Of a stretch of DNA of 22,726 nt, positions 3,057 through 9,393 are shown one piece after another. The notes beneath the pieces are model-generated. The model did not search any database, was not told the origin of the DNA, and saw only the letters and a list, made by a program, of their open reading frames with translations. The stretch covers positions 1-22,726 of IMG/VR virus record IMGVR_UViG_3300042480_000900. The stretch is one strand, 5' to 3'. Source of the stretch: a virus. The first letter of the stretch is position 1. Every line of letters begins with the position of its first letter. Made by a program: the position numbers and the translations under genes.

Positions 3057-4999
3057 GGAATCAACCTCCCCTTCTCGTCCAGCTTCTTGTCGGCTTCCTT
3101 CGTCCAGTACCGCATCAGCGCCGGCTCAGCGCTCACCCGCACGTCCGGCACCACCTCTCGCATCTTCGCCACCATCACCTCGGCCTGACGCCGAGCCGCC
3201 GCGTCCACGAAGTCGACGCCCCTGTCTGGAATGTCGATGATGGTTTCGTCGTGGGCGAAGATGCACAGCCGCGAGCCGGTCAGCGCCGTCTCCTCCGCGC
3301 CGTACATCTCCCGCGTCATCTGCACCACGGCGCGCTTCGCCCCGTCAGCCGCGAGGCCCTGGAACAGCGTGTTCGCCGCCGACGTGTACGTCACCCCGCC
3401 ACGGATGCGGTGCGAGACGAACTGCTCGACGGAGTCCTTCTCCTGAAGCTGCGCGTCGACCCACTTCAGGTACGAGCGCATCTCGGGCAGTGTGGCGAAC
3501 CAGATGCCGCGCAGCTCGCGGGTCTGCTCGAGGCACCGCAGGCACGCCGGAGCGCGGCACGGCCGGTCCTTCCACTCCATCACCTTCTTCTCGCCGCACC
3601 GGCCGTCGCGGTAGAACCACTCGCAGACCGACGAGCCCTCTTTGCGCTTGGCGCTGACGAACGCCTCCTCGCCCATGCCTCCGGGGAATCCGAAGTTGGC
3701 AGCCTTGCCAGCTTGTCGAAGGTCCTTCGCCGCGGCGTCCTTGGCGTCGATGCGAGCGCGGAACTCCTCGTAGGACACGCCCGTCAGCGACGCGCCCATG
3801 ATGCTGTGCGGGTCCTGCCCTGCGTTGATGATGTCGGCGAGCTTCGAGCCGCCCACCGTCCAGAGGCAGACCTGCGCCAGCGTGGAGAGCTCGATGGCCG
3901 AGTAGTCCACGCTCGACCCGACGCCGCGGAACTTGAAGCACTCGCGCACCCCACCCTTGCGGGGCATGAGCTGCACGAGGCCCTCGTAGCTCGTGCGGCC
4001 CGTGGCGAGGATGACGTTCGGGCGGACGTTCAGGGGCGCCCTTGAGGCCTCCTCAAGCGCCGGCACGTAGGTCGAGAGCTTCTCCCACTTGGAGAGCTCG
4101 CCGAGGGCCTGGAGCGGCGGGCTGCCGGAGTCCTCGAGCACCTCGCGGGCGGTGGACACCTGCCCCTTCTCGGTGACGGGGGCCTGTCCGAGCCAGGCTG
4201 CCTGCACCGCCTCGCGGATGGCCGCCATGTTCTTCGACAGCTCGTTGTGGCGGTTCGACTTCATCAGCCCGGCCTTCACGACGACCTGCCGAAGCTCGTT
4301 CAGCCTGGACTCGATGGAGCCCTTCAGCGCCGCCACCTTCTCCGGGTCGGTGCGAAGGCCATTGATGGCCGACAGGTGAAGCGCGAGGGCCACCTGGCTC
4401 TGAAACGGCACCTCGTGCAGGTTCATCGCGGTGGGGAGCATCGCCCTCGCCACCTCGAAGGTGTTCACCGCGTCGTCCTTCGGGTACTGGATGGCGTTGG
4501 CGGGCCACGCAGAGAACGGCAGCCCGTCGAACTCGGCGTAGCGCAGACGGAACTCGGCGTTCTCCTTCGCGTCGTCCCGCCCGAGCCACTCCTTCACCGC
4601 GCACGCCAGCGTGTACCGGTTGGTCTGCTTGCCCGTGCCGGGGTCGACCATCCGCCGCCCCGAGCGGTCGAACAGTTCGCCGTCCCTGAGCCGCCCCTCG
4701 GCGATGGCGTTGAGGGTGCAAGCGATGAGGATGTCGAAGACCTTGCCCTCGTCGTACTTCTTCCAGACGAGCGCGAAGTCCTCGGGGTAGTGGCGCAGGT
4801 GACACCCGAAGTCGTAGGCGACGTTGGCGCCGATGACCATCTCTGGCGTCATGAGGATGTGCCGGACGCGCTCGAGCGCCTCGGGGCGCTGCTCGAGCAG
4901 CGGGGTCGTCTCTCCGTCGAAGAAGGCCCCACAGACGATAGGGGGGTTCAGGACGCCTGGCTGAATGAGCCACGTCTCGAAATCGAACGCGACTGGCAT
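3047..4999 (-). CDS. Family A DNA polymerase with 3'-5' exonuclease domain
   Basis: The 650-aa replicative polymerase begins with a proofreading domain: Exo I FDFET (D6, E8), Exo II NVAYDFG (D63) and Exo III YPKDD (Y172, D176). The polymerase domain has motif A VDYSAIELS (D365, E370), motif B RQAGKAANFGF (R428, K432, F436) and motif C FAHDETI (H583, D584, E585). No 5' nuclease domain is present. Two features are odd. The O-helix tyrosine of the canonical RxxxKxxxFxxxYG pattern is replaced by glycine (G440 in NFGFPGG). Between motifs B and C a cysteine cluster (C459, C468, C481, C486, C489) looks like a zinc-binding insertion. ATG 4999 has GGGGGAG about 6 nt upstream. Together with primase-helicase and SSB-like protein it forms the replisome. 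Confidence 0.95.
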   Translation of the reverse strand: MPVAFDFETWLIQPGVLNPPIVCGAFFDGETTPLLEQRPEALERVRHILMTPEMVIGANVAYDFGCHLRHYPEDFALVWKKYDEGKVFDILIACTLNAIAEGRLRDGELFDRSGRRMVDPGTGKQTNRYTLACAVKEWLGRDDAKENAEFRLRYAEFDGLPFSAWPANAIQYPKDDAVNTFEVARAMLPTAMNLHEVPFQSQVALALHLSAINGLRTDPEKVAALKGSIESRLNELRQVVVKAGLMKSNRHNELSKNMAAIREAVQAAWLGQAPVTEKGQVSTAREVLEDSGSPPLQALGELSKWEKLSTYVPALEEASRAPLNVRPNVILATGRTSYEGLVQLMPRKGGVRECFKFRGVGSSVDYSAIELSTLAQVCLWTVGGSKLADIINAGQDPHSIMGASLTGVSYEEFRARIDAKDAAAKDLRQAGKAANFGFPGGMGEEAFVSAKRKEGSSVCEWFYRDGRCGEKKVMEWKDRPCRAPACLRCLEQTRELRGIWFATLPEMRSYLKWVDAQLQEKDSVEQFVSHRIRGGVTYTSAANTLFQGLAADGAKRAVVQMTREMYGAEETALTGSRLCIFAHDETIIDIPDRGVDFVDAAARRQAEVMVAKMREVVPDVRVSAEPALMRYWTKEADKKLDEKGRLIPWA

Positions 5000-6418: not shown

Positions 6419-7507
6419 TTAATTACTCTTGAGGCCGGTGTCAAGCACGTCCATCATGGAGCGGACGAACGTCGCCGCGACTTCCGAGACGATGGCGTTC
6501 CCGTAGGCCCTCAGCTTCCCGACCCTCGGTTGCGTTTCCATGGAGCCGTCAGGTCCCACTCGGGCGGGAGCCCCATGAGCCAGCGGGAATGTGCCGGGTT
6601 CAACTGGCCGCCACTTGTTGACGGGCTTGTCTCGGCAGAGGACCCAATCCGGGTCGCTCCAAAAGCCTGACGTGGGAGTTGGTCCATGCGGCTGCGCTGC
6701 GTCCCGTCCGGGTTGGTGCCCGTCTTGGCCATGCCCGGCGTGTCCTTCCAGTCCCTCGTCGTCGTCGTCGCCCAGCCCGCGAATTGGGCCTGGTGCGAGA
6801 GATGCGTCACCGACTGCCCGCACGGCAGTCCCTTCTTGCGCTCGAGGGCCTGCTCCGGCGTCCCGCCCGGCTCGTGCGCCGCCGGTGTCGCCCAGCCCGC
6901 GAGCCGCGCCGCGTCCGCCAGCGTCGTGCCGGAGTGGTGCGTGTCCGACTTCGGGTAGCCCGCCACGCCCGACGAGGCCCCGTCCTGTCGCGTCGGCGTC
7001 GGCCAGCCGGACTGCGCCGAAGTAGAGTCGCTGGCGGATGTGCGGGGCGCCGACGCCCGCAGCGCACAAATCGGCAGCCCCGACGGCATAGCCCAGTGCT
7101 TCCAGGTCAGCGCGTACAGCGTCGAACCACGCCCGGCCGTCAGCGCTCGCAACCTGCTCTCCAAAGACGACTGGAGGGAGGCACTCGGCGATGAGGCGAC
7201 GCCACTCGGGCCAGAGGTGTCGCTCGTCGTCGGTGCCTTTGCGTCGGCCGGCGACGGAGAAAGGCTGGCAGGGGCAGGAGCCGGTCCAGACGGGCCGGTC
7301 GTCGGGCCATCCGGCGAGTCGGAGCGCGTGGCTCCAGACTCCGATGCCGGCGAAGAAGTGCGCTTGCGTAGCAGCTCCAACAGACTCACGGGTGACCTCC
7401 AGGATGCTTCGGGAATCGACCTGCCCTCGTGCGATGTGGCCGGCCTCGACGAGGTTGGTGAGCCACTGCGCCGCGTACGGGTCGAACTCGTTGTAGTACG
7501 CCGCCAT
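6419..7507 (-). CDS. DNA (cytosine-5) methyltransferase
   Basis: The 362-aa enzyme has the C5-methyltransferase motifs in order: motif I HFFAGIG (residues 50-56, SAM binding), motif IV GSCPCQPFS with catalytic Cys80, motif VI FGEQV in place of ENV (E117), motif VIII PHIRQRLYF (R158-R160) and motif X AYGNAIV near residues 334-340. The N-terminal extension YYNEFDPYAAQWL is typical of phage versions. The middle (about 168-290) is rich in Gly, Arg and Asp with repeated LAD/LGD units and is probably the target-recognition region. ATG 7507 overlaps the helicase stop by one base (TGATG). It would methylate cytosines in phage DNA, probably against host restriction. A second reading frame lies inside the gene. 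Confidence 0.9.
   Translation of the reverse strand: MAAYYNEFDPYAAQWLTNLVEAGHIARGQVDSRSILEVTRESVGAATQAHFFAGIGVWSHALRLAGWPDDRPVWTGSCPCQPFSVAGRRKGTDDERHLWPEWRRLIAECLPPVVFGEQVASADGRAWFDAVRADLEALGYAVGAADLCAAGVGAPHIRQRLYFGAVRLADADATGRGLVGRGGLPEVGHAPLRHDAGGRGAARGLGDTGGARAGRDAGAGPRAQEGTAVRAVGDASLAPGPIRGLGDDDDEGLEGHAGHGQDGHQPGRDAAQPHGPTPTSGFWSDPDWVLCRDKPVNKWRPVEPGTFPLAHGAPARVGPDGSMETQPRVGKLRAYGNAIVSEVAATFVRSMMDVLDTGLKSN
6511..7389 (-). CDS. Possible overlapping (+1 frame) protein inside the methyltransferase gene
   Basis: This 292-codon frame lies wholly inside the methyltransferase gene. Its GTG start at 7389 is preceded by GGAGGTCACCC, a good Shine-Dalgarno sequence at normal spacing. The product has ordered motifs: SLQSSLESRLRA and LYALTWKHW (71-99), CALRASAPRTS (108-118), three repeats WPTPTRQD (129), AGWATPAAHEPG (164) and AGWATTTTRDWKD (204), and LNPAHSRWLMGLPPEWD (263-279). 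From memory, the same motif order occurs in phage proteins deposited as hypothetical proteins or methyltransferases. The high Ser, Pro, Thr and Ala content is also what a shadow frame in GC-rich DNA would give, so this is a candidate and not a certain gene. Confidence 0.45.
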   Translation of the reverse strand: MSLLELLRKRTSSPASESGATRSDSPDGPTTGPSGPAPAPASLSPSPADAKAPTTSDTSGPSGVASSPSASLQSSLESRLRALTAGRGSTLYALTWKHWAMPSGLPICALRASAPRTSASDSTSAQSGWPTPTRQDGASSGVAGYPKSDTHHSGTTLADAARLAGWATPAAHEPGGTPEQALERKKGLPCGQSVTHLSHQAQFAGWATTTTRDWKDTPGMAKTGTNPDGTQRSRMDQLPRQAFGATRIGSSAETSPSTSGGQLNPAHSRWLMGLPPEWDLTAPWKRNRGSGS

Positions 7508-9393
7508 CAGAACCCCCACGTCGCCTTGGTGACGAGCTTCTGCGTAGCGCCGAACGCGCCCTGGATGTACGCCGACAGTTCCCGAGCCGTCTCGATGGCT
7601 TCGCGGAAAGGCTGCGTGTGGCGGTACACCTCGACCGTCACCTCGTCGGCCACCTGCCCCTGACGGTGCGTGCGGCCCAGGAGCTGCTCCCACTCCGCGC
7701 CGCCGCTCGGCGGGTTCGCCACTAGGTTGCGGTTGAACATCTGAAGGTTCTTCCCCGTGCCGTGACTGCGAATGGTGAGCAACGCCCGCTCCTTCCCCGT
7801 CAGCTTCAGCACCGCCCCAGCGCCCTCGTCGCCCGGCCCACAGTGCACCACCGGCACGCCGCGCTCGCGAGCCTTCTGCATCACCCGCACGCCGAAAGCG
7901 TCGCTCTCGTACCACGCCAGCCCAGGCTTCTCCTCGAGCCACGTCACCACGTCGTCGACGAGGAAGTCGGAGAACCACACACCTTCCGTGACGGGACTCG
8001 CAGAATCCTTCACTTCTCGCCACTTCGGGAAAGTCTCGGCGCGCCAGATGGGGTGCTTCTCGATGTTCGACGGCGTCTCGGGAGCGACGACATGTCGCAC
8101 ACCAGCCTCGTCGAGCCACGCGAAGCCGTCGTACCAGCGAATGGCCGCGCGAGCGCAGAGCATCGGGGAGTCCATCCACGTCTTCGACTGCTTCAGCTTG
8201 TCGCGAAGCTCCTTGTTCCAGGCCTTGCGTGCCTCGAGCCACTTCTCGATGACCTCCTTGGGCTCGCCGCGGGGCCACCGCCACCGGTACCAGAAACCGC
8301 AGGACACCTCGCGAGCGCAGCGCGCCACCGAGAGCGGGTCGATGAGCTCTTCGCCGTCGGGGCGCTGCCACATCTCCACCACGGCATCGAGGCGGACCTG
8401 CACCTCTGGCGGGGCTTGAATCTTCCGCTCGGTGATGACGAGCGACGCCTGACAGGCCTGCGCGTCTCCGCTTGAGACGACTCCAGGGGTGAGCAGCACT
8501 CGGCGGGAGAAGGCTTCTTGCGGCGTCTCGCCGGGCTCGCACAGCTTCGTCAGCTCGCCGGCCGGGGACGGGAAGTCGCTTGGGTCGAGCGCGCTCGCCC
8601 AGGCTTCGAGCGTCGGGTAATCGAGCGGGGCCGGTGAGCCTTGCTTCAATGCCGCGGCGGACAAGTGGGCCCAATCAAGCAAGCTGCGCTTCGTCAGCGT
8701 GCCGCTCCAACACAGCACCTTCGTGCTCGGGTGCTGACGGAGGAAGCGACCGAACCGCTTCGTGCGCGCTGCGGTGGCGTTGGCGAGGCTGTGCGCCTCG
8801 TCGATGATGATGAGGTCTGGCTGGAGCCGCTCGAGGATGTCGGAGTTCTTCGCGCCCGAAAGCTCCGAGAACGCCACGACGTGGAGTAGCGGTCGGCCGG
8901 GGTATTGGAACTTCCCGCCGACCAAATTCGGCAGCTTCCAGTGCTGACCGTAGTAGTGCCAGTCCACTTCGAGGAGCTGGCGCTTCAGGTTCGGCGGCAG
9001 GAACAGCACCGCAACGCGGCACTTGACGACCATCGCCGAGAGCAGGTCAAGGAGGGTTTTCCCGTGGCCGACGCCGATAGGACCGAGCAGTCCCGCATTC
9101 TCCTGAGCCTCGTGGAGCGCCCAGGCCTGCACCGGGAGCAGGCTCGAGCAGCACGGCCGGTGGAACTTCGACATGCACTGACAGATTCCGCCCTCGATGC
9201 CGAGGCGGGCCTTGTACGCCGCAGCGAGTTCTTGAAGCTCTTCCGTGCGCGGAGGCTGCCTCCGAGGCAGGCTCTTGATGCGCTCGAGTTCTCGTGGGAC
9301 CGGCGGCGGCGTCGGCATCGAGACGGCGGGCTTCGGTGTCGGCGTCGCGGCCGGCCCTTGAAGACGGCTCTGGAGGAGCTTCAGAAGGTTCAC
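7507..9393 (-). CDS. SF2 DNA helicase (SNF2/DEAH-like)
   Basis: The 628-aa protein has Walker A GVGHGKT (107-113), motif II IIDEAH (196-201), motif III WSGTLTKR (229-236) and motif VI QLLGRTHRQGQ (570-580, with R574 and R577), the pattern of SNF2-like phage helicases. The N-terminal 50 residues are Pro-rich and likely disordered. A small cysteine/histidine cluster (C71, C73, H78, C81, C82) lies just before the helicase core and may bind metal. ATP-driven DNA translocation or branch migration at phage replication forks is the expected role. GTG 9393 overlaps the upstream nuclease stop as GTGA. Close coupling to nuclease and primase-helicase supports a joint replication or recombination function. 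Confidence 0.88.
   Translation of the reverse strand: MNLLKLLQSRLQGPAATPTPKPAVSMPTPPPVPRELERIKSLPRRQPPRTEELQELAAAYKARLGIEGGICQCMSKFHRPCCSSLLPVQAWALHEAQENAGLLGPIGVGHGKTLLDLLSAMVVKCRVAVLFLPPNLKRQLLEVDWHYYGQHWKLPNLVGGKFQYPGRPLLHVVAFSELSGAKNSDILERLQPDLIIIDEAHSLANATAARTKRFGRFLRQHPSTKVLCWSGTLTKRSLLDWAHLSAAALKQGSPAPLDYPTLEAWASALDPSDFPSPAGELTKLCEPGETPQEAFSRRVLLTPGVVSSGDAQACQASLVITERKIQAPPEVQVRLDAVVEMWQRPDGEELIDPLSVARCAREVSCGFWYRWRWPRGEPKEVIEKWLEARKAWNKELRDKLKQSKTWMDSPMLCARAAIRWYDGFAWLDEAGVRHVVAPETPSNIEKHPIWRAETFPKWREVKDSASPVTEGVWFSDFLVDDVVTWLEEKPGLAWYESDAFGVRVMQKARERGVPVVHCGPGDEGAGAVLKLTGKERALLTIRSHGTGKNLQMFNRNLVANPPSGGAEWEQLLGRTHRQGQVADEVTVEVYRHTQPFREAIETARELSAYIQGAFGATQKLVTKATWGF

Follow-up and report, generated by a model that had tools for sequence, protein, structure and literature searches.

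The methyltransferase locus

The window (the whole stretch of 22,726 nucleotides that was analysed, from IMG/VR virus record IMGVR_UViG_3300042480_000900) carries on its minus strand a gene of 362 amino acids (6419–7507; start ATG 7507, end 6419), whose reading frame is termed frame 0 and whose product was assigned as the putative large (alpha-like) subunit of a C5-cytosine DNA methyltransferase. The protein matched PF00145 (E=4e-14) and phrog_363 (E=5e-79), and M.HhaI was found as a sequence match. Motifs I (HFFAGIG, 7334–7360), IV (CPCQPFS, 7256–7276), VI-like (VFGEQV, 7151–7168), VIII (IRQRLYFG, 7016–7039) and X (LRAYGNAI, 6476–6514) were located in this frame, all on the minus strand; motif X, for which the profile match was weak, was read directly. 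Motif VI has GEQV instead of ENV, which counts against the interpretation preferred below. The criteria for a C5-cytosine methyltransferase of the PF00145 family were met (catalytic PCQ, FxGxG, GN(A/S)(I/V) and an M.HhaI-like fold). Motifs I–VIII and X are present in the frame-0 protein of the window and motif IX is absent from it; the single-chain criterion of PF00145, motif IX and the catalytic motifs in one chain, was thus not met, as motif IX occurs only in the overlapping frame described below.

The AlphaFold model of the frame-0 protein was confident at residues 1–170 and in the C-terminal helix and disordered at residues 180–274. The initial annotation had noted a low-complexity methyltransferase frame where the repeats of the overlapping frame lie, and this was found at the same residues 180–274 (pLDDT 33–48). 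The best fold match of the model was M.HhaI (Z 15.4, 175 residues aligned), with the structural alignment beginning at M.HhaI residue 34, past motif I of that enzyme. The order of the motifs in this part (7334–7498, minus strand) seems permuted, with a motif II-like segment YYNEFDPYAAQWL (residues 4–16) ahead of motif I (residues 50–56).

The gene adjoins replication genes. Upstream of it lies a helicase-like gene (7507–9393, minus strand; phrog_62, E=4e-10), the TGA of which overlaps the methyltransferase ATG (TGATG); read from the sequence, this overlap suggests translational coupling of the two genes. Among the neighbours of the locus, which are only partly annotated, no restriction endonuclease gene was recognised.

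The +1 open reading frame

An open reading frame in the +1 register of the methyltransferase (6511–7389, minus strand) had been proposed in the initial annotation as a possible overlapping gene. Its position was reproduced: it runs for 292 codons from GTG 7389 to a stop at 6511–6513, lies wholly inside the methyltransferase gene (ATG 7507 to 6419), stops where motif X begins and is preceded by GGAGGT (7395–7400), a Shine–Dalgarno-like site read in the sequence six bases upstream of the GTG (7387–7389; whole element 7387–7400). All of the motifs that had been listed for it were found, namely LYALTWKHW, GWPTPTRQD, AGWATPAA, AGWATTTTRDWKD and LNPAHSRWLMGLPPEW. The product, 292 amino acids in length, is here assigned as the putative small (beta-like) subunit; its register is kept in relatives, and frame-0 third-position substitution is reduced over it.

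Three parts of the +1 protein were distinguished, all encoded on the minus strand. A conserved N-terminal block (SLQSSLES...LYALTWKHWAMPSGLPICALRAS, 7051–7179) overlies the region of frame-0 motifs VI–VIII, where the frame-0 third-position rate is 0.16–0.39 (codons 103–150). The GW[PA]T repeats (6742–7008) comprise GWPTPTRQD (6982–7008), AGWATPAA (6877–6900) and AGWATTTTRDWKD (6742–6780); their W and T are nearly invariant, and frame 0 over the same bases is of low complexity and predicted to be disordered. The C-terminal motif LNPAHSRWLMGLPPEW (6556–6603) aligns to motif IX of single-chain relatives and coincides with a frame-0 third-position rate of 0.06.

No Pfam match to the +1 protein was obtained up to E=1, and the +1 profile found no match among PDB sequences. 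Structure prediction was weak (mean pLDDT 64, pTM 0.29), and a fold search with the model returned only low-Z matches to unrelated chains, none of them informative. The better-scored parts of the model are a helix at 68–84, strands at 93–99 and 107–113, and helices at 265–280 over motif IX.

Comparison with related loci

The openness of the +1 frame in the window alone was assessed by shuffling codons while keeping the frame-0 protein and comparing the +1 open length; an equal or longer +1 frame arose in 8% of shuffles (P=0.08). Since this is not significant, only comparison with relatives could decide. The caveat raised earlier about a +1 shadow of GC-rich DNA is therefore fair for the window taken alone; on comparison with relatives the frame did not behave as such a shadow.

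Two viral-contig searches, using the +1 protein and the frame-0 protein respectively as query, gave 137 distinct loci, in all of which (137/137) both frames match in the same register, including the loci found with the frame-0 protein alone. The search of phage proteins with the +1 sequence that had been proposed as a check returned 207 phage records and the family phrog_1008 (E=7e-26). These database copies are not gene-calling artefacts, as had been feared; the suggestion that the frame resembles independent phage proteins found no support, no stand-alone copy being present among the loci searched. A further search, the sole query of which was a DNA pattern specifying the +1 motif NPx[FWY]VExLMG[FY]P, recovered 80 viral loci with a GC content of 0.32–0.67, in nearly all of which the open reading frame containing the motif lies +1 inside a methyltransferase open reading frame over hundreds of bases. 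Long open +1 frames are not expected by chance at 32–40% GC.

From motif VI to motif X the +1 frame is free of stops in 118 of the 121 two-frame loci (about 12 expected), compared with 0 of 28 single-chain loci. Frequent +1 stops in relatives, which would have refuted the proposal, were thus not encountered; the frame is almost never interrupted, AT-rich relatives included. The locus counts are not independent, owing to shared ancestry; the substitution tests also covered independent pairs. The overlapping gene is considered real with very little remaining doubt.

Some individual loci deviate from the general pattern. In L002 and L049 frame 0 is interrupted early (codons 98 and 108, respectively) and the +1 frame is open, reflecting decay, sequencing error or real loss. 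In two contigs (L122 and L151, near 3140–3190) both frames change register together in the variable region, as after an indel.

Starts of the +1 frame preceded by a Shine–Dalgarno-like site cluster at frame-0 codons 31–41 in 128 relatives, close to where the GTG of the window lies (codon 40). A Shine–Dalgarno-preceded start within codons 30–59 was present in the +1 frame of 95 of these 128 loci, against 39 of 128 for the +2 frame. The position of the GTG start varies among relatives, which counts against the preferred interpretation. AT-rich loci have the +1 frame mostly closed 13–34 codons upstream of motif IV and carry candidate +1 starts with AAGGAG-like sites 12–18 codons upstream of that motif. 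From this closure and the clustering of Shine–Dalgarno starts, independent initiation of the +1 product is more likely than frameshifting; translation from GTG 7389 is itself an inference.

Codon-position substitution

The wobble position of the +1 frame is codon position 1 of frame 0. Across 29 independent pairs the frame-0 third-position rate was 0.257 before the overlap, 0.159 at codons 116–165, 0.094 at codons 281–316 and 0.182 after it; the reduction was significant for both internal segments (Fisher P=2e-9 and 3e-21, respectively). The sliding profile of the same rate lies at about 0.6 at codons 19–48, falls to 0.16–0.22 at codons 127–144 (LTWKHWAMPSG in the +1 frame), is 0.29–0.36 at two GW[PA]T repeats, where frame-0 substitutions rank p1>p2>p3, reaches about 0.06 over LNPAHSRWLMGLPPEW and returns to 0.5–0.6 at the end. 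First-position changes over LNPAHSRWLMGLPPEW remain at 0.23, as is characteristic of a +1 codon. Between the GW[PA]T repeats, in low-complexity sequence, neither frame is clearly constrained and the alignment is unreliable.

A second, largely separate set of sequences was used to compare the motif IX block, in which the rates at p1/p2/p3 were 0.250/0.103/0.087 in two-frame loci and 0.063/0.045/0.235 in single-chain loci (P=2e-14 for the contrast). As p1 is fast in the former and p3 in the latter, the wobble position tracks the frame that carries motif IX. The test of synonymous constraint suggested in the initial annotation thus had a positive outcome, variation being strongly reduced in the overlap and most of all over the LNP...LMG...W motif, and its impression that constraint moves between the frames was confirmed by third-position rates that drop over the +1 motifs and recover afterwards.

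Identity of the +1 product

The initial annotation had left the +1 product unidentified. Judged by sequence comparison, its C-terminal motif is motif IX of C5 methyltransferases, the motif missing from frame 0. A locus found by the motif pattern (L357) encodes an ordinary single-chain methyltransferase (PF00145 over residues 5–336) that carries RLNPDWVEWLMGYPISWT in the methyltransferase frame, just ahead of motif X. This segment aligns to M.HhaI 270–318 (motif IX, then X); the match is weak for the segment alone and its place is as expected. Of the 158 loci that passed a strict filter, 28 have motif IX in frame 0 only and 121 in the +1 frame only, with none having it in both frames and none in the +2 frame. 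Nine of the 158 lack motif IX by the strict pattern, and three of these show a variant in the +1 frame. With hhalign, the match of the +1 profile to that of the single-chain enzymes was confined to motif IX (Prob 91, E 1e-6), and the frame-0 profile covered motifs I–VIII and, weakly, X.

In a tree built from the methyltransferase core, the single-chain loci fall into what is essentially a single group next to the two-frame loci, with two label changes compared with a shuffled mean of 24.5. This is consistent with one change of frame arrangement in the history of the family, the direction of which is left unsettled by a tree with midpoint rooting only.

Two loci are unusual in their layout. In L364 (4036–5112) the N-terminal motifs I–VI share one frame with the GW[PA]T/LNP part, as if an indel or sequencing error had fused the frames, and one contig (L368, 809–1885) has two LNP...LMG motif open reading frames in tandem, each overlapping a methyltransferase open reading frame.

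Proposed split enzyme and alternative explanations

Both frames are conserved, the +1 frame is under protein-level constraint and motif IX occurs in one frame or the other, never in both. The interpretation that we consider probable, and hold with good confidence, is that the +1 gene encodes the motif IX subunit of a split heterodimeric phage C5 methyltransferase; translation, heterodimer formation and activity are inferred, no expression or protein data being available. The same DNA, read in two overlapping frames, would specify both polypeptides of a single C5-cytosine DNA methyltransferase. Frame 0 would supply the large subunit with the cofactor-binding and catalytic motifs I, IV, VI, VIII and X, and the +1 frame, probably from the internal start GTG 7389, a small subunit ending in motif IX, ahead of which a conserved helix/strand block and the GW[PA]T repeats would occupy the place of the variable target-recognition region. 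The two subunits should associate into an active enzyme methylating phage, and perhaps host, DNA, probably as protection from restriction. The start, the heterodimer, the enzymatic activity, the target site and the protective role all remain inferences.

The variable region is predicted to be disordered in frame 0 and is overlain by the +1 GW[PA]T repeats. A wider reading, which is possible but doubtful, is that of a widespread phage architecture with the motifs spread over two frames, in which the small subunit gained its N-terminal domain by overprinting the catalytic region and variable +1 GW[PA]T modules took over target recognition as the frame-0 counterpart decayed to a disordered linker.

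Explanations without a second protein were weighed against the split enzyme. Were the +1 frame a passive shadow in GC-rich DNA, with conservation that merely mirrors the methyltransferase frame and database copies produced by gene calling, its openness in the window would need no explanation, as it is not unusual for this protein and codon usage (P=0.08); however, the third-position rate should then stay high, yet it drops several-fold over the +1 motifs, the frame is open in AT-rich loci too, +1 stops are present in 28 of 28 single-chain relatives and motif IX is never found in both frames. The codon-position pattern and the single-chain control already contradict this explanation, which was rejected as most improbable. 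If a nucleotide-level element (an RNA structure or DNA site) restrained synonymous change, fewer third-position changes would be expected as well, but at the motif p1 is high (0.23–0.25) and both p2 and p3 are low, which is the pattern of a +1 codon; moreover, the +1 motif corresponds to a known protein motif of the single-chain relatives and the constraint recurs in separate blocks across several hundred bases, so that such an element can hardly be the cause.

Other explanations accept a +1 product and differ in its origin or function. Ribosomal frameshifting from the methyltransferase frame would fuse the frame-0 N-terminus to the +1 C-terminus without a start of its own, and in some loci the +1 frame is indeed open far ahead of the conserved block. 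The closure before motif IV in AT-rich loci, with constraint beginning only about 20–25 codons past that motif, and the enrichment of Shine–Dalgarno starts in the +1 frame speak against it (slippery sites were outside the analysis); the shift would have to precede motif VI, losing motifs VI, VIII and X, and frameshifting was judged unlikely. An independent gene of other function has a precedent in hidden out-of-frame HNH genes reported inside a phage methylase (PMC11855218), for instance the homing endonuclease of ShiLan. It was given very little credence for the window, where the +1 protein lacks a Pfam match, is no insertion but spans methyltransferase motifs VI to IX, is best conserved in motif IX itself and has no stand-alone copy among the loci searched.

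Comparison with known systems

The split enzyme proposed here, the small polypeptide of which would be read out of frame from within the gene for the large one, is like M.EcoHK31I (C5, YGGCCR), the small polypeptide of which is likewise encoded inside the large gene in a different frame. The window resembles it also in having a large subunit with motifs I–VIII and X but not IX and a small polypeptide with IX. Of the two polypeptides of M.EcoHK31I, the larger has motifs I–VIII and X, and the smaller has motif IX alone (PMC3404938). Unlike M.EcoHK31I, the locus of the window is found in phages and adjoins replication genes, its +1 protein, 292 amino acids long, contains GW[PA]T repeats as well as a further conserved block, and its frame 0 begins with the motif II-like segment. 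The locus fits the M.EcoHK31I kind of organisation; this concerns organisation only, without sequence comparison with M.EcoHK31I, a system that was not identified in plasmids, nor in the E. coli genomes searched with the epsilon15 gene.

M.AquI (two-subunit C5, CYCGRG) is likewise a naturally split C5 methyltransferase, but has motifs IX and X together in its small subunit (PMC3404938), a criterion that the window does not meet as its motif X lies in frame 0. Phage C5 methyltransferases of the single-chain type, L357 among them, differ in having motif IX in the methyltransferase frame and stops in the +1 frame. In ShiLan an HNH endonuclease gene with a proposed GTG start is hidden out of frame in a phage methylase (PMC11855218). 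The window shares with ShiLan a second frame inside a phage methylase gene and a proposed GTG start; unlike that inserted homing endonuclease, its +1 product most likely belongs to the enzyme itself as a subunit, and no HNH endonuclease domain was detected in it by the Pfam search up to E=1.

PHROG 1008 corresponds to the +1 family and PHROG 363 to the frame-0 family. Both are labelled only 'DNA methyltransferase', a label that is silent on their being two frames of one locus.

Distribution and implications

The two-frame arrangement is present in cultured phages (N15 and epsilon15) and in many environmental ones. Both frames are annotated in PhiXhv-5 and PhiXhv-28, and one frame is annotated in N15, epsilon15 and Pseudomonas phage 5399, in which both are open. 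In an E. coli prophage (L501, 1492–2661) frame 0 is open for 390 codons, yet RefSeq records two incomplete pseudogene fragments, a call that possibly results from the split architecture and the variable middle.

No description of overlapping methyltransferase genes in phages was found in the open-access literature. The two-polypeptide design itself is known; new are its wide occurrence among phages, a +1 protein with repeats and the extra conserved block. A long overlap between genes on one strand is difficult to prove, and gene callers usually reject such genes; in the present case, single-chain relatives with the same motif in the other frame provide an internal control. Since N15 and epsilon15 carry the arrangement, it can be tested directly in cultured phages. 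If the proposal is true, many phage 'DNA methyltransferase' annotations would describe half an enzyme, activity assays on frame 0 expressed by itself would come out falsely negative, and a design with two polypeptides that is known from very few enzymes would be common in phages.
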